Assembly (NCBI RefSeq): GCF_003386095.1 | Contig: NZ_QREG01000012.1 | Location: 1-64,000, forward strand | DNA length: 64,000 bases | Direction: 5' to 3' | Source of the DNA: Marinoscillum furvescens DSM 4134 | GTDB taxonomy: Bacteria; Bacteroidota; Bacteroidia; Cytophagales; Cyclobacteriaceae | Shown: positions 34,969 to 40,895 of the stretch, one piece after another | How the letters are laid out: every line of letters begins with the position of its first letter | Position numbering within the stretch: the stretch's first letter is position 1 | The notes under the pieces: generated by a model | Database searches by the model: none | The model's input: the letters and a program-made list of their open reading frames with translations, nothing else | Told to the model about the DNA's origin: nothing | Made by a program: the position numbers and the translations under genes

Positions 34969-35013
34969 TGTAACATTAGTGACAATGAACCCTTATGAAT
35001 CGGGCTAGCTTTG
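34969..35013 (+). promoter_or_regulatory. operator and promoter of the YeeE/YedE pair (palindrome site 1)
   Basis: GTAAC (34970-34974)-ATTA-GTGAC (34979-34983), flanked by T and A to give TGTAAC-N4-GTGACA; a perfect -7 box TAGCTTTG at 35006-35013. The palindrome centre is 29.5 bp before the first base of the -7 box, about -42 from the likely start, the place of a class II Crp/Fnr activator. The same arrangement recurs at 37642 and 39411. Confidence 0.75.
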
Positions 35014-35049
35014 CTGTATTCTTTTTATTAATGTATTAAACTCTAGTTC

Positions 35050-35610
35050 ATGACAAACTGGTTGACAGATCCATGGCCCTGGTATGTAGCAGGTCCGTTG
35101 ATTACACTTACCATGGTATTGCTTTTTCTATTTGGGAAAACCTTCGGCGTTTCCTCTACTCTGCGCACTATCTGCTCTATTGGAGGAGCTGGTAAATGGA
35201 GTGACTTTTTTAAGTTCGATTGGCGATCTGCCGTTTGGAACTTGTTTTTTGTTGCGGGAGCCGCTATCGGTGGCTACATCGCATCTACTTATATGACTAG
35301 TGGTGAAGCAATCGCTTTGAGTGAGGCCACCACTCAGTCACTAAAACAAGTAGGAATCAAAAACCCTGGAGCAGAATTCGTGCCTTCAGAGATATTTCAG
35401 TGGGCAAATCTGGCTACCTGGCAGGGATTGCTCTTCATGGTAGTAGGAGGATTCTTAGTTGGTTTTGGTACTCGTTATGCAGGAGGCTGTACCTCAGGCC
35501 ATGCCATCACGGGTCTTAGCAATTTACAACTGCCTTCGCTTATAGCGGTAGTTGGTTTTTTTATCGGAGGCCTCATTGTTACACATTTTATTTTCCCATT
35601 CGTGTTATGA
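35050..35610 (+). CDS. YeeE/YedE-type sulfur-compound permease, first half
   Basis: A 186-residue membrane protein with about five hydrophobic segments. The YeeE/YedE hallmark GTRYAGGCTSGHAITG (about 141-156) carries the conserved Cys thought to pass thiosulfate or sulfane sulfur. Full-length YeeE proteins are fusions of two such halves; here the halves are separate, and the partner begins in the ATGA overlap at 35607. Related pairs have been called PmpA/PmpB. The location beside a persulfide dioxygenase-rhodanese gene fits import or export of thiosulfate or reduced sulfur. It has its own promoter with a Crp/Fnr-type palindrome. Confidence 0.85.
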   Translation: MTNWLTDPWPWYVAGPLITLTMVLLFLFGKTFGVSSTLRTICSIGGAGKWSDFFKFDWRSAVWNLFFVAGAAIGGYIASTYMTSGEAIALSEATTQSLKQVGIKNPGAEFVPSEIFQWANLATWQGLLFMVVGGFLVGFGTRYAGGCTSGHAITGLSNLQLPSLIAVVGFFIGGLIVTHFIFPFVL

Positions 35611-36023
35611 ATAAATTGAAATTTCTTATTGCCGGTATTTTGTTTGGTATCATTCTTACAAAATCTGAAGTGATCTCCTGGTTTCGTATTTACGAGATGT
35701 TTAGGTTTGAATCCTTTCATATGTATGGCGTGATTGGCTCTGCTGTAGGTTTGGGTATTGTGGCCGTTCAGATCATTAAGAGACTTCAGATCAAAGACTT
35801 TTCAGGAAAACCGATTGTAATTCCAGATAAACAAATGCGATTCTGGCCTTCCTTGCTGGGTGGTACTATTTTTGGATTGGGTTGGGCTCTTACCGGAGCA
35901 TGCCCGGGGCCTATTTATACCATTATCGGAAATGGATTTCTTGTATTCATTGTGGTGCTGGCTTCCGCGGTTATCGGTACACTTACCTATGGACTGGTGA
36001 TGGATAAACTGCCGCAGAAATAG
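35607..36023 (+). CDS. YeeE/YedE-type sulfur-compound permease, second half (DUF6691-like)
   Basis: 138 residues with four hydrophobic segments. The motif GLGWALTGACPGPIYT (about 91-106) carries the single conserved Cys of this half, the counterpart of GGCTSGH in the first protein. Translation is coupled to the upstream half by the ATGA at 35607-35610. Together they should form one channel with two sulfur-passing cysteines in the inner membrane. The exact substrate cannot be read from sequence. Confidence 0.85.
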   Translation: MNKLKFLIAGILFGIILTKSEVISWFRIYEMFRFESFHMYGVIGSAVGLGIVAVQIIKRLQIKDFSGKPIVIPDKQMRFWPSLLGGTIFGLGWALTGACPGPIYTIIGNGFLVFIVVLASAVIGTLTYGLVMDKLPQK

Positions 36024-36078
36024 GTCTGCGCATACAGCCAAAATTAGTTATCTTTCGTTTTCTAACCCCACTTGAAAC

Positions 36079-37008
36079 ATGACATATACCCAGGGAATGC
36101 TACGCGACGATGCGTTAAAAGGAAAAACGATACTGGTAACTGGAGGTGGTACTGGTCTAGGTAAGTCTATGGCCACCTATTTTTCAACTTTAGGAGCCAA
36201 CCTGGTCATTACCAGTAGGAAGCTCGAAGTATTAGAAGCTACCGCTGAAGAGATATCAGGTGTAAGCGGAAACCCCGTACTTCCACTGGCCTGTGATGTG
36301 AGAGATTATGAGCAGGTAGAGCGTACTATCGATGAATCCATCAAACACTTCGGGAGTGTAGATGTACTGCTCAACAATGCCGCAGGAAATTTCATTAGCC
36401 CTACCGAAAGGCTTTCTCACAGGGCATTCGATACAGTGGTAGATATTGTGCTGAAAGGCTCCTACAACTTTACCCTTGCTATGGGTAAAAAATGGATCGA
36501 TGAAAAACGGGCGGGCAATATCTTGAGTATAGTGACTACATATGCCTGGACAGGGTCTGGCTATGTAGTACCTTCGGCATGTGCCAAATCCGGGGTGCTC
36601 GCCATGACCCGTTCACTAGCCGTGGAGTGGGCAAAATACGGCATCAGGTCCAATGCCATAGCTCCTGGGCCATTTCCTACCAAAGGAGCCTGGGATCGAT
36701 TATTGCCCGGGGATCTAAAGAAAAAGTTTGACCCAGCACATAAGGTGCCAGTAGGCAGGGTAGGCGAACATCAGGAGCTGGCCAACCTTGCGGCCTATTT
36801 AGTCTCAGATTACTCAGCATATGTCAATGGAGAAGTGATTACCATAGACGGTGGAGAGTGGTTAAAAGGTGCCGGAGAGTTTAATCAGCTAGACCAAATA
36901 CCCGAAGAACTTTGGGATGCTATGGAGATGAGTAGAAAAGGTGGGTCTAAATTGAAAATGATGTGGGCTTATCTTGCGGGCATGCGAAAACTCAAATTCA
37001 GAAAATAG
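36079..37008 (+). CDS. 2,4-dienoyl-CoA reductase-like SDR (DECR1 type)
   Basis: A 309-residue short-chain dehydrogenase with Rossmann motif TGGGTGLG (about 21-28) and NNAAGNF. In place of the usual YxxxK it has the DECR-type SACAK before SGVLAMTRSLAVEWAKYG, then APGPFPTKGAW and a long tail with NGEVITIDGGEWL and SGEFN/AGEFN-like residues. This is very close to what I recall of mitochondrial DECR1, which reduces 2,4-dienoyl-CoA with NADPH in the breakdown of polyunsaturated fatty acids. A near -7 box TATCTTTC at 36050-36057 suggests its own promoter. The Crp/Fnr gene starts 3 bp after its stop. Its link with the sulfur genes around it is unexplained. Confidence 0.85.
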   Translation: MTYTQGMLRDDALKGKTILVTGGGTGLGKSMATYFSTLGANLVITSRKLEVLEATAEEISGVSGNPVLPLACDVRDYEQVERTIDESIKHFGSVDVLLNNAAGNFISPTERLSHRAFDTVVDIVLKGSYNFTLAMGKKWIDEKRAGNILSIVTTYAWTGSGYVVPSACAKSGVLAMTRSLAVEWAKYGIRSNAIAPGPFPTKGAWDRLLPGDLKKKFDPAHKVPVGRVGEHQELANLAAYLVSDYSAYVNGEVITIDGGEWLKGAGEFNQLDQIPEELWDAMEMSRKGGSKLKMMWAYLAGMRKLKFRK

Positions 37009-37011
37009 TGC

Positions 37012-37638
37012 ATGGATAATCTTGAGGAAATTTTAGAAGGCAATGGGTTTGAGAAAGAACTGGTCGCAGAAATAAAGAATATAGGACGGTCTAAACGTGT
37101 ATCAAGTGGTGGGGTAGTAGTGAGTGCAGACCTGGGGTCAGAAGAGATTCCTTTGGTCTTGTCGGGGCTACTAAAACTTCTGCGAAAAGATGACCAGGGC
37201 AACGAACTGTTTCTCTACCATCTCCAAAGTGGAGAAACTTGCGCCATGTCTATTACATGCTGTCTGGAAGGCAAGACTCAAGACATTACCGTAGTTGCAG
37301 AGGAAGATTCGCAACTGTGGATGATTCCTATGCACACTGTAGATCGCTGGATTCAGCGGTATAAATCGTTCAGGAAATTTGTTTTTCGGTCCTATCAGGA
37401 ACGCTTCGATGAGCTGCTCGGGGCCTTAGACGGTATTGCCTTCTTAAAAATGGACGAGCGCCTCATGAAGTATTTGTTAGACCTAAAGCAAGCATCTGGC
37501 AGTTTCGTGATCAAGAAGACCCATCAGGAAATAGCCAAAGAGCTAAACACCTCCAGAGTGGTGGTGTCCAGGCTATTGAAGCAGTTGGAACGAGATGATA
37601 AAATCGAACAACACCGTAATAGAATAGAGATATTGTAA
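37012..37638 (+). CDS. Crp/Fnr-family transcriptional regulator with a possible cysteine sensor
   Basis: 208 residues: a cyclic-nucleotide-binding-like beta domain (about 20-125), dimer helix (about 126-150), and winged HTH (about 168-200: HQEIAKELNTSRVVVSRLLK). Where Crp binds cAMP, this protein has SGETCAMSITCCLEG with Cys77, Cys83 and Cys84, and it lacks the usual arginine there; no N-terminal iron-sulfur cysteines are seen. Cys pairs of this kind could sense persulfide or redox state. Three palindromes GTAAC-N4-GTkAC in the promoters of the sulfur genes around it are the likely targets; one (37642-37661) lies 3 bp after its stop. The family is sure, the signal inferred. Confidence 0.9.
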   Translation: MDNLEEILEGNGFEKELVAEIKNIGRSKRVSSGGVVVSADLGSEEIPLVLSGLLKLLRKDDQGNELFLYHLQSGETCAMSITCCLEGKTQDITVVAEEDSQLWMIPMHTVDRWIQRYKSFRKFVFRSYQERFDELLGALDGIAFLKMDERLMKYLLDLKQASGSFVIKKTHQEIAKELNTSRVVVSRLLKQLERDDKIEQHRNRIEIL

Positions 37639-37641
37639 CAC

Positions 37642-37688
37642 AGCGTAACTTATGTTACGCTATCCCCCTGGCCTGCACCCTACATTTG
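37642..37688 (+). promoter_or_regulatory. operator and promoter of the SulP gene (palindrome site 2)
   Basis: Perfect palindrome AGCGTAAC (37642-37649)-TTAT-GTTACGCT (37654-37661) and a perfect -7 box TACATTTG at 37681-37688. The distance from palindrome centre to -7 box is 29.5 bp, as at the YeeE promoter. The ATG of the SulP gene is at 37695, so the expected start of the message falls on or within a few bases of the start codon, making a leaderless mRNA likely. Confidence 0.78.
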
Positions 37689-37694
37689 CCAGAC

Positions 37695-39407
37695 ATGAAG
37701 TATTTAAAACAACTTTTTCCCATACTCCAATGGATGCCTCACTACCAGCGCAAATGGCTCTACGGTGACCTAAGTGCTGGGCTTACTGTAGGAGTTATGT
37801 TGGTGCCTCAGGGGATGGCTTATGCCATGATTGCGGGACTACCGCCTGTATATGGACTCTACGCTGCTTTGGTGCCGCAGCTAATATATGCGTTGATGGG
37901 AACATCACGGCAACTGAGTGTGGCACCTGTGGCAATGGACTCCTTACTCGTGGCAGCGGGTGTATCCGTATTGGCTACTCAGGGAACCGCTGAATACATT
38001 ACATTTTCCTTGTTGCTGGCCTTTTTTGTTGGCTTTTTTCAAATTTTGCTGGGCAGTGCACGCTTGGGGTTCATTACCAACCTTTTGGCACGACCTGTCA
38101 TAAGTGGTTTTACATCGGCCGCCGCATTTATCATCGGTATCAACCAACTGAAATACTTTCTTGGGGTAGACCTGGAAAGGAGTAGTCAGCTAGTTACAGT
38201 ACTATGGGATGCCATCAAAAGCCTACCGGAGATTCACTGGCTTACATTCTTTATTGGCTTACTTGCTATACTCATCATTAAGGCTCTAAAAGTAGTCAAT
38301 GGTAAGATCCCAGGTGCTCTGGTAGTGGTAGTTGTAGGTATTGTTGCTGTCTACCTTAGTGGGTGGTCAGACCAGGGTGTACGGATAGTAGGGGAAATAC
38401 CAGGTGGATTACCGCAGTTTACCCTGCCAAATCTGGATCTGAGTGTCTTTATGTCTCTGGCTCCATTAGCTGGTACCATCGCATTGGTGGCATTTATGGA
38501 GGCATATTCTGTGGCAAAGGCTATAGAGGCCAGGAGAAGAAATTATGATGTAAAGCCTAATCAGGAATTACTTGCCATTGGTAGTGCCAATCTGGTGGGC
38601 GCGCTCTTTCAAAGCTACCCTGTGACCGGTGGTTTTTCCAGGTCAGCTGTAAACGACCAGGCAGGCGCCCACACGCAGTTGTCTTCAGTGATTTCGGCCA
38701 TGTTGGTGGCATTGGTGCTGCTATTTCTCACTCCTTTGTTTTATTACCTACCTCAGGCTGTATTGGCAGCTATCATCATGGTGGCAGTGGCCAAATTAGT
38801 GGATGTTAAATATGCAATCAACCTGTTTAAAACCAATCGGTCAGAATTTGTATTGTTGCTAATCACATTCCTGGCTACGCTTCAGTTTGGCATGGTGGAG
38901 GGTATTGTTTCGGGAGTGGTATTGTCTATCCTTATGATGCTCTATCGGATCGCGTATCCACACATAGCAGTTTTAGGTAGGCTGCAGGGATACTTCGAAT
39001 TTAGAAATATCCGTCGGTTTTCAGACTTAGAAACCTGGCCAGAATTACTGCTTGTTCGTGTAGATGCGCCTATGATTTTTGTAAATGTGCAATACATACG
39101 TGACTTTGTGTTGAAGGAGTTGGAAAAGCGCCCTACAGTACAAACCATAATATTAGATGCCAATGCTATTAGTCATGTAGACGCTACAGCCCTGGAAGCA
39201 TTAATGCAGCTTCGAAATACCTTGCATGAGCGAGGTATTAGATTGATGTACGCCGAGTTGGTAGGCCCGGTTAGAGACATGCTTCATAAAAGCGGATTGA
39301 TAGCAGATATAAAGGAGGATGTGTTTCTAGATATGAATGAGGCCGTAAACTATATTGTTAATAAAGAGCCACCCCAGCACGGGAAAGAAGCCCTACAGTC
39401 CAACTAG
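37695..39407 (+). CDS. SulP-family anion transporter with STAS domain
   Basis: 570 residues from the ATG at 37695; an in-frame TTG at 37686 lies inside the -7 box and is rejected. The SulP signature is present near the N-terminus (AGLTVGVMLVPQGMAYAMIAG), about 12 hydrophobic helices span about 25-430, and a STAS domain fills about 440-560 (ILDANAISHVDATALEAL). The family moves sulfate, bicarbonate or other anions. Shared control with a persulfide dioxygenase-rhodanese and YeeE pair supports sulfate, sulfite or thiosulfate here, but bicarbonate cannot be excluded. The ATG seems to sit at the transcription start. Confidence 0.92.
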   Translation: MKYLKQLFPILQWMPHYQRKWLYGDLSAGLTVGVMLVPQGMAYAMIAGLPPVYGLYAALVPQLIYALMGTSRQLSVAPVAMDSLLVAAGVSVLATQGTAEYITFSLLLAFFVGFFQILLGSARLGFITNLLARPVISGFTSAAAFIIGINQLKYFLGVDLERSSQLVTVLWDAIKSLPEIHWLTFFIGLLAILIIKALKVVNGKIPGALVVVVVGIVAVYLSGWSDQGVRIVGEIPGGLPQFTLPNLDLSVFMSLAPLAGTIALVAFMEAYSVAKAIEARRRNYDVKPNQELLAIGSANLVGALFQSYPVTGGFSRSAVNDQAGAHTQLSSVISAMLVALVLLFLTPLFYYLPQAVLAAIIMVAVAKLVDVKYAINLFKTNRSEFVLLLITFLATLQFGMVEGIVSGVVLSILMMLYRIAYPHIAVLGRLQGYFEFRNIRRFSDLETWPELLLVRVDAPMIFVNVQYIRDFVLKELEKRPTVQTIILDANAISHVDATALEALMQLRNTLHERGIRLMYAELVGPVRDMLHKSGLIADIKEDVFLDMNEAVNYIVNKEPPQHGKEALQSN

Positions 39408-39410
39408 AAT

Positions 39411-39454
39411 GTAACAGTAGTTACGTTTTATCGAAACAGAAATTCGTTTCTTTG
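39411..39454 (+). promoter_or_regulatory. operator and promoter of the persulfide dioxygenase-rhodanese gene (palindrome site 3)
   Basis: GTAAC (39411-39415)-AGTA-GTTAC (39420-39424). Exactly 29.5 bp from its centre begins TTTCTTTG (39447-39454), a -7 box with one mismatch. Spacing is the same as at sites 1 and 2. It starts 4 bp after the SulP stop, so the downstream gene is likely read both from here and by read-through. Confidence 0.7.
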
Positions 39455-39488
39455 TATAAGACATTAACCAGAAATAAAATATACAGTA

Positions 39489-40895
39489 ATGCATATTGAA
39501 CAAATTTATACCGGATGCCTGGCACAGGGAGCTTATTACATCGAAAGTGAAGGACAGGCAGCCATCATAGACCCGCTTAGAGAGACAAGTCCATATATAG
39601 AGAAAGCAAAAAGCCGGGATGCCGTTATCAAATACATCTTTGAGACTCATTTTCATGCGGACTTTGTGTCGGGCCATGTGGACCTGGCAGCCAAAACCAA
39701 TGCCCAAATCGTCTATGGCCCTGGTGCCAAGACAGCCTACGATATCCATGAAGCAAAAGATGGAGAGGAGTTTGTGCTTGGAAAAGTGAAAATCAAAGTG
39801 TTGCACACACCCGGACATACCCTGGAATCCACTACTTATTTACTCAGTGATGAATCTGGAAAGCCACAGGCTATTTTTAGTGGCGACACGCTCTTTATCG
39901 GAGATGTAGGAAGACCGGATTTGGCACAAAAAGGAGATGTGACGCAGGAGGATCTGGCAGGAATGCTTTATGACAGCCTAAGAAACAAAATTATGCCGCT
40001 TCCAGATGATGTAGTAGTATACCCTGCACATGGAGCGGGCTCTGCATGTGGTAAAAACATGAGTAAAGAGACCAGCGATCTACTTGGAAACCAAAAAGAG
40101 TCAAACTATGCACTAAGGTCTGGTATGACCCGTGAAGAGTTTATCAAAGAAGTGACAGATGGCTTGCTACCTCCACCTCAGTATTTTGCTCAAAATGTGG
40201 CGATGAATAAATCTGGAGCAAAAAGCCTTGAAGATGTACTCCAAAAAGGGTTGGTGGCACTTACTGTAGACGAATTTGAGGCCATGGCCAATCACGAAGG
40301 AGCAATAGTTCTGGATACCAGAAAACCTCAGGATTTTGCACAATCGCATATTCCAAATTCAATTTTCATTGGCATTGATGGCAGTTTTGCTCCATGGGTA
40401 GGAGCGCTCATTCCTGATTTGAGCCAGCCTATCGTTTTCCTAGCAGACGAAGGGAGAGAAGAGGAGGTGGTGACCCGGCTATCCCGAGTAGGCTATGACA
40501 ATACACTTGGGTACCTCGCAGGAGGAATGCAGGCGTGGAAAGAAGCTAAAAAAGATGTTGCACAGGCAGAGTCAATCACAGCTGAAGAATTAGAGTCAAG
40601 AATGACTAAAAACGAGCTCACTGTATTAGATGTAAGAAAGCCTTCAGAGTTTGAATCCGAACATTTAGAAAGTGCCGTCAACGTACCATTGGATTTTATC
40701 AATGACAATATGGGGCAATTAAGTAACAACACCAGGTATCATGTACATTGTGCAGGTGGATACCGGTCTATGATCTTTGCTTCCATATTGAAATCACGTG
40801 GTTTTGATCAGGTTGTAGATGTACAGGGAGGCTATAAAGCGTTAAAGGAAACATCCATACCCAGGACAGCTTTTGTGTGTCCGTCACAATCCTAA
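39489..40895 (+). CDS. persulfide dioxygenase-rhodanese fusion (CstB-like)
   Basis: 468 residues. An N-terminal metallo-beta-lactamase domain of the ETHE1/persulfide dioxygenase type covers about 1-235: THFHAD at 53-58 (His54, His56, Asp58), HTPGHT, SGDTLFIGDVGRPD and YPAHGAGSACGKN. A first rhodanese-like domain (about 255-355) has lost its active Cys (LADEGREE, Ala319-Asp320 where Cys is expected). A second (about 365-460) has Cys421 in HCAGGYRS. This dioxygenase / dead rhodanese / live rhodanese order is that of Staphylococcus CstB, which turns persulfides and sulfite into thiosulfate. It is a cytosolic defence against sulfide stress and is placed with sulfur permeases under a shared operator. 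Confidence 0.92.
   Translation: MHIEQIYTGCLAQGAYYIESEGQAAIIDPLRETSPYIEKAKSRDAVIKYIFETHFHADFVSGHVDLAAKTNAQIVYGPGAKTAYDIHEAKDGEEFVLGKVKIKVLHTPGHTLESTTYLLSDESGKPQAIFSGDTLFIGDVGRPDLAQKGDVTQEDLAGMLYDSLRNKIMPLPDDVVVYPAHGAGSACGKNMSKETSDLLGNQKESNYALRSGMTREEFIKEVTDGLLPPPQYFAQNVAMNKSGAKSLEDVLQKGLVALTVDEFEAMANHEGAIVLDTRKPQDFAQSHIPNSIFIGIDGSFAPWVGALIPDLSQPIVFLADEGREEEVVTRLSRVGYDNTLGYLAGGMQAWKEAKKDVAQAESITAEELESRMTKNELTVLDVRKPSEFESEHLESAVNVPLDFINDNMGQLSNNTRYHVHCAGGYRSMIFASILKSRGFDQVVDVQGGYKALKETSIPRTAFVCPSQS

Follow-up and report, generated by a model that had tools for sequence, protein, structure and literature searches.

A palindrome at one fixed distance from the -7 box marks a probable Crp/Fnr-driven sulfane-sulfur regulon in Marinoscillum furvescens and its relatives

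A 64,000-nucleotide stretch of the Marinoscillum furvescens DSM 4134 genome (Bacteroidota, Cytophagales; contig NZ_QREG01000012.1, positions 1 to 64,000; hereafter the window) holds a sulfur locus at 34,969-40,895 in which one palindrome stands at one and the same distance before the -7 promoter boxes of three transcription units. The genes behind these promoters had been identified in a first-pass annotation as a YeeE/YedE pair, a SulP transporter and a CstB-like enzyme, with a Crp/Fnr regulator gene amid them, and Pfam agrees with each assignment. Taken as a whole, the locus is probably best explained as a class II regulon for sulfane sulfur driven by a Crp/Fnr protein. An operator, its fixed gap to the box, a recurrent gene set and a co-occurrence with one type of Crp protein can all be read directly from the sequences.

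The palindromes, located by direct reading and by pattern search, are GTAACATTAGTGAC (34970-34983), GTAACTTATGTTAC (37645-37658) and GTAACAGTAGTTAC (39411-39424), and the pattern GTAAC-N4-GT(T/G)AC occurs nowhere else on either strand of the window. At all three promoters 22 bp separate the palindrome from the box and 29.5 bp its centre from the first T of the box; the third box, TTTCTTTG, differs from TAnnTTTG at its second base. The first-pass annotation had described these three pairs and considered such repetition very unlikely to arise by chance: the coordinates and the 29.5-bp distance are exact to the base, and the palindrome followed by TNNNTTTG at a gap of 22, present three times in the window, was absent from each of 200 dinucleotide shuffles of it. 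The palindrome alone averaged 0.105 matches in those shuffles, while in a set of 100 shuffles it averaged 0.18 matches per shuffled window and never reached the five strand-matches observed.

CRP of Escherichia coli is centred at -41.5 on its class II promoters. The same position is predicted here from gap counts and from box positions given in two published studies: the -7 element of Flavobacterium johnsoniae spans T-12 to G-5 (PMC6847099), and a start-site map of F. psychrophilum likewise puts it at -12 to -5 (PMC9723704), so that a first T at -12 places the palindrome centre at -41.5. The earlier estimate of a site near -42 thus agrees with the start sites of other species, both of Flavobacterium.

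The first-pass annotation had named a lack of enrichment before sulfur genes in related genomes as an outcome that would overturn its regulon, and we found the reverse. We fetched 46 loci from named records with the Crp protein alone, without reference to the box, among them loci of Marinoscillum, Fulvivirga, Marivirga, Ekhidna, Eudoraea and Robertkochia and of many metagenome-assembled genomes, and considered genes at least 40% identical with 120 bp of upstream sequence. A palindrome with at most one mismatch lies upstream of 28 of the 28 CstB-like, 13 of the 17 SulP and 10 of the 15 YeeE genes, with a near-consensus box at gap 22 in 23, 10 and 9 of these cases, respectively. Two of the five YeeE genes without a palindrome (L051 and L068) follow a CstB-like gene that has its own site, at distances of 25 and 49 bp, and are therefore probably part of its operon. 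Where an exact TAnnTTTG box follows an exact palindrome by 8-38 bp in these loci, the gap is 22 in 23 of 25 cases and 21 in the other two.

The spacing also dominates a broader survey, in which we searched 196 genomes of the family and 395 of a phylum sample for GTAACN4GTTAC-N(8-38)-TANNTTTG ("family" and "class" being ranks of the genome collection used). Within the family, 62 of the 196 genomes hold 122 matches, 88 of them at gap 22, followed by gap 21 (7) and gap 23 (6). The rest of the class, represented by 83 genomes from other orders together with six from the family's own order that gave no match, yields 100 matches, 66 of them with gap 22; of the 20 matches from the remaining classes of the phylum, one has this gap. 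A backwards control pattern gave matches, unsorted by gap, that were scattered over genomes in both the family and the phylum sample. The regulon had first been described as a local one; beyond that, it is shared across the class.

Within the family, most of the genes behind the operator are sulfur genes. At 88 distinct family sites, the first downstream open reading frames (ORFs), once clustered, comprise 29 CstB-like, 15 YeeE, 13 SulP and 11 TauE/SafE genes, so that 68 of the 88 sites precede one of these four types; the remainder are seven outer-membrane efflux (OEP) genes, three thioredoxins, two members of one unknown family and eight single genes, one of which encodes a TsdA-like cytochrome c with a SoxA/TsdA domain (Pfam of representatives). 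Elsewhere in the class, 42 of the 66 gap-22 sites were read for downstream genes and gave 12 CstB-like genes (three of them distant, at 33 to 35% identity, and two short rhodanese-only matches), nine OEP, four TauE and one YeeE gene, and 16 unassigned cases. These 16 include two genes that by eye resemble pyridine-nucleotide oxidoreductases of the sulfide:quinone reductase type, one of them confirmed as Pyr_redox_2, single Hcp-like and cytochrome bd-like genes (by eye), and two sites with no ORF in the stretch examined. In one genome (G478), seven matches within 26 kb resolve into six palindromes, one of which has boxes on both sides; they surround genes for a rhodanese, a persulfide dioxygenase-rhodanese and TauE, and one such site is followed by an oxidoreductase-YeeE-ORF-YeeE-Crp run.

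Palindromes precede some further genes as well. A fatty-acid-hydroxylase-family gene carries one with TATCTTTA at gap 23 in three loci (L041 8474, L042 4465, L054 5296); in L041 and L042 about 570 bp separate its end from the regulator gene that follows. Two more palindromes stand before a sulfite-oxidase-like molybdopterin gene in L068 (15020; TAGCTTTA, gap 22) and before a gene for a single-domain rhodanese in L067 (14920; TACATTTA, gap 21).

The distribution of the site follows that of a particular Crp type. We define the V/Cys type by a valine recognition helix, SRVV[VI]SR, together with Cys77, Cys83 and Cys84, and the E type by a glutamate in the helix; as a rule only the best homologue of each genome was typed, a limit to be held against the association that follows. 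In the family, where 37 of the 196 genomes were typed, a gap-22 site is present in 10 of the 13 V/Cys genomes and in one of the 24 others (G012; p = 8e-6), and in the class, with 80 of 83 genomes typed, in 25 of 27 and 8 of 53 (p = 1e-11), although both p-values overstate independence because the genomes are related. Within a single genus (g112), a hand count found the site in 5/5 V/Cys genomes and 1/17 others, with genome G582 untyped. Linkage points the same way: 27 of 35 loci with a V-helix Crp also contain a CstB-like, SulP or YeeE gene and all 11 E-helix loci lack one, although some of the loci span only a few kilobases.

We considered whether the V/Cys type forms a single clade, and rejected this: in a tree of 123 rows, 46 of the 49 rows with valine and all three cysteines (V/CCC) fall into one clade of 48 (support 97/90), together with two V rows with altered cysteines, and the other three join one E-helix row in a small mixed clade (91/97). 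In that clade the V genomes have one, three and two sites and the E genome has none; between the sisters L304 (V helix, genome with two sites) and L305 (E helix, no site), the contrast suggests that the site follows the helix residue itself, beyond clade membership alone. Control by the encoded Crp/Fnr protein, which the first-pass annotation had inferred, is thus backed by co-occurrence, helix type and linkage, and the protein of 37012-37638 very probably binds the operators.

This protein belongs to the Crp/Fnr superfamily, with PF00027 and PF13545 both above cut-off and fold matches in agreement. Its recognition helix aligns with that of NtcA (RVTVTR) as R-V-x-V-x-R, CRP having RETVGR (R-E-x-V-x-R), and the operator fits within GTA-N8-TAC, the NtcA site, while the equivalog scores fall far below cut-off for both NtcA (33.9 versus 244.95 bits) and CRP (48.6 versus 266). 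The cAMP contacts of the CRP phosphate cassette, Glu72, Arg82 and Ser83, read as Ser, Gln and Asp in the alignment, which argues against a cAMP-binding CRP, and an FNR-like 4Fe-4S protein is not indicated, since Cys77, Cys83 and Cys84 are its only cysteines and there is no N-terminal cysteine cluster. Pfam finds no CsoR, ArsR or sigma-54 activator domain, the domain families of CstR, BigR, SqrR and FisR, in the regulator. The three cysteines are kept by every one of 28 aligned homologues, V- and E-helix alike, but this conservation does not extend to more distant homologues; judged from the alignment, the cysteines sit where cAMP-type regulators hold the phosphate of their ligand. In an AlphaFold model, whose mean pLDDT of 84 drops to 55 over residues 81-90, a predicted helix at 78-85 holds Cys83 and Cys84, with Cys77 just before it.

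Several observations weigh against a sulfane-sulfur regulon under this one regulator. The site also occurs in eight of the 53 class genomes that lack the V/Cys type. Two of them, G504 and G321, have a V helix with substitutions at Cys83 and/or Cys84, which argues against a strict need for all three cysteines; G224 has a V helix with Cys-Gly-Gly, G374, G366 and G313 have an E helix, and G439 and G447 have no homologue at E<=1e-20. A separate V-helix clade with Cys-Gly-Gly has the site in one of seven genomes. Conversely, three of the 13 V/Cys genomes of the family have no exact site: in G036 there are near-matches with the correct spacing, and in the stretches examined of G010 and G017 none was found. 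E-helix siblings (L075-L085, L022-L024, L027-L040) mostly keep the three cysteines, and their loci, apart from L083, which has an exact palindrome at 1503 and a near-consensus box at gap 22, hold neither the palindrome nor sulfur genes, so that the cysteines are not specific to a sulfur regulon. As for an operator of these siblings' own, no palindrome recurs at gap 19-25 before boxes in their loci, and no GTAAC-like 5-mer palindrome stands out. We also tried the loss of a -33 box as a sign of activation and set it aside: TTG is found in 6 of 88 promoters and in 9 of 47 control promoters (p = 0.04), but the half-site itself bars TTG at some of those offsets and promoters of this group have weak -33 boxes in any case, so that the comparison lends activation little support.

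The strongest competing explanation keeps the activator and the operator and replaces the signal, with redox state, oxygen, nitric oxide or a small ligand as the cue and the sulfur genes as one output among others. The cysteine cluster shared with E-helix siblings is compatible with it, as are one site each before an Hcp-like and a cytochrome bd-like gene in other families (L227 and L261; genes named by eye) and the OEP genes at 7/88 and 9/42 of the sites read (e.g. L197 267-1580, plus 15 others), which fit a sulfur regulon poorly. Against it stand the 68 of 88 family sites that precede four types of sulfur gene, and we regard it as an unlikely alternative, albeit one to be kept in mind.

It is much less probable that another Crp/Fnr paralogue binds the palindrome and that the neighbouring regulator gene is a bystander. 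A whole-genome scan of M. furvescens did yield 12 candidate stretches at first look, but only 37012-37638 scored at E<=0.001, and the site co-occurs with this Crp type, even within one genus, and shares loci with it in the manner described above. An equally small chance attaches to the palindrome being a repressor site that overlaps the promoter. Known persulfide sensors (CstR, BigR and SqrR) act as repressors, yet repressor sites usually vary in position, and here a single helical position, -41.5, is kept across the class, as expected for contact with polymerase; activation rather than repression is accordingly the reading in which we place high confidence. Least probable of all is a sulfur-starvation regulon in which thiosulfate and sulfate brought in by YeeE and SulP would be assimilated, for although SulP proteins can take up sulfate and the YeeE halves weakly match the thiosulfate transporter TsuA (NCBIfam, far under cut-off), no cysteine synthase, APS/PAPS or sulfite reductase was recognised downstream of the sites, where unassigned ORFs were judged by eye and not all scanned, and persulfide dioxygenase, sulfide:quinone-reductase-like, TauE and sulfite-oxidase-like genes fit disposal.

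For a Crp/Fnr-driven sulfane-sulfur regulon, we propose that the dimer would bind TGTAAC-N4-GTTACA centred at -41.5 and act as a class II activator of sigma-A promoters whose box is TAnnTTTG. Its targets would be genes that oxidise, move or detoxify sulfane sulfur, namely those for the CstB-like enzyme, the YeeE/YedE pair and SulP, and in relatives also TauE, sulfide:quinone-reductase-like, thioredoxin, TsdA-like and rhodanese genes. Sulfane sulfur would link or modify the cysteines, the dimer would take its DNA-binding form, and the bound dimer would recruit polymerase from -41.5; that the signal is persulfide or polysulfide acting on Cys77, Cys83 and Cys84 is a view to which we incline with some reserve. 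The regulator gene lies three bases behind a short-chain dehydrogenase (SDR) gene, which itself lies 55 bases behind the YeeE pair and possibly shares its transcript. Given these short gaps the regulator may be co-transcribed from operator 1, an arrangement that would give positive feedback; the G478 regulator ends a comparable run.

Table 1. Features of the sulfur locus (34,969-40,895), in window coordinates
Feature	Position	Strand	Basis or remark
Operator 1, TGTAACATTAGTGACA, right half imperfect, centre 34976.5	34969..34984	+	kept before YeeE genes of relatives
-7 box of YeeE promoter, TAGCTTTG	35006..35013	+	gap 22 as in relatives
YeeE/YedE half 1 (Sulf_transp)	35050..35610	+	Pfam
YeeE/YedE half 2 (DUF6691/Sulf_transp)	35607..36023	+	Pfam
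SDR gene, between YeeE pair and regulator	36079..37008	+	Pfam
Crp/Fnr regulator, 208 aa; Cys77, Cys83, Cys84; recognition helix SRVVVSR	37012..37638	+	
Operator 2, CGTAACTTATGTTACG, centre 37651.5	37644..37659	+	reading, pattern search
-7 box of SulP promoter, TACATTTG	37681..37688	+	reading, survey pattern
SulP transporter with STAS domain	37695..39407	+	Pfam, NCBIfam
Operator 3, TGTAACAGTAGTTACG, centre 39417.5	39410..39425	+	reading, pattern search
-7 box of CstB-like promoter, TTTCTTTG	39447..39454	+	reading
CstB-like persulfide dioxygenase-rhodanese (metallo-beta-lactamase and two rhodanese stretches)	39489..40895	+	Pfam

The enzyme at the end of the locus (Table 1) has the domain plan of CstB, a metallo-beta-lactamase domain with two rhodanese stretches, of which by eye the second carries a cysteine loop (CAGGYR) and the first has no cysteine at that place; we call it CstB-like because it reached no NCBIfam cut-off among the 25 families shown. 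No second full-length CstB-like gene was found in the M. furvescens genome, and TauE and sulfide:quinone reductase were set aside there as marginal matches (E ~5e-4 and ~6e-4). The SulP start codon follows the first T of its -7 box by only 14 bp (37681-37697), so that the SulP mRNA would be leaderless or nearly so, and 4 of the 13 SulP sites in the family have a predicted start codon within 16 bp of the box start. Ten bases ahead of operator 2 there is an additional half-site, TGTAAC, which overlaps the regulator's stop codon (37634-37658).

The genome-wide search for motif and box that had been suggested recovered the three sites of the locus and one intergenic candidate. GTAACN4GTKAC occurs at ten places in the 5.96-Mb genome, three of them in this locus, and of the seven elsewhere six have no box at gap 22 and fall within long reading frames (210 to 702 codons). 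The one remaining (C13:2498; L007 1501-1544) is an intergenic palindrome, TGTAACCTGAGTTACA, with a near-consensus box, TATTTTTA, at gap 22, a methyltransferase-like ORF 202 bp downstream and another gene starting on the opposite side; its intergenic position and its box make a fourth site possible, and it may be a weaker member of the regulon.

Among known systems, cyanobacterial NtcA (PDB 2xgx and others), which activates near -41.5 and senses 2-oxoglutarate, shares the Crp fold and the R-V-x-V-x-R helix, but governs nitrogen genes where sulfur genes are found here. The best match in both sequence and fold, ranked first by Foldseek, is 3dv8, an uncharacterised Crp/Fnr protein of Eubacterium rectale with cysteines at the places of Cys77 and Cys83, which differs in its E-type helix (HREVITR) and in an isoleucine at the place of Cys84. 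BigR belongs to the ArsR family. In Acinetobacter baumannii, BigR controls a yeeE-yedE-pdo2 operon and FisR a pdo1-sqr-tauE operon (PMC7315123), the same kinds of gene under persulfide-responsive control; BigR, however, is a repressor and FisR a sigma-54 activator, whereas M. furvescens has a Crp/Fnr protein at sigma-A promoters. The cst operon of Staphylococcus aureus likewise places a persulfide dioxygenase and TauE under a persulfide sensor, CstR (PMC6195638, PMC7315123), which a reference title describes as a CsoR-like repressor, unlike the Crp/Fnr regulator here. The gene content matches that of persulfide regulons in other phyla, where the regulators (CstR, BigR and FisR) come from different protein families. 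Within the Bacteroidota, CrpPg of Porphyromonas gingivalis is described as a Crp homologue independent of cAMP, whose loss lowers expression of trxA and an SDR gene (PMC12040651); its structure, 2GAU, is absent from the 41 PDB sequences that our regulator matched at E<=10. Among the literature matches listed, from a search whose "Crp Fnr" wording may miss "Crp/Fnr" and which covers subscription papers sparsely, no Crp/Fnr sulfur regulator of Bacteroidota was described, nor, in the same scope, any named regulator of the sulfide or persulfide response of these bacteria.

Bacteroidota of this kind are widespread. We tentatively suggest, at somewhat less than even confidence, that the regulator represents an undescribed, class-wide family of Crp/Fnr sulfane-sulfur sensors, in which the cyclic-nucleotide cassette would have become a Cys-x5-Cys-Cys switch for class II promoters and a single Glu/Val change in the helix would separate the regulon from that of a sister regulator with another operator. 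With the operator, its exact position, the gene list and the residues to mutate in hand, the question is directly testable, and if the sensor part of the proposal is true, the Crp/Fnr fold would join the CsoR, ArsR and sigma-54 activator families as one that senses persulfide.

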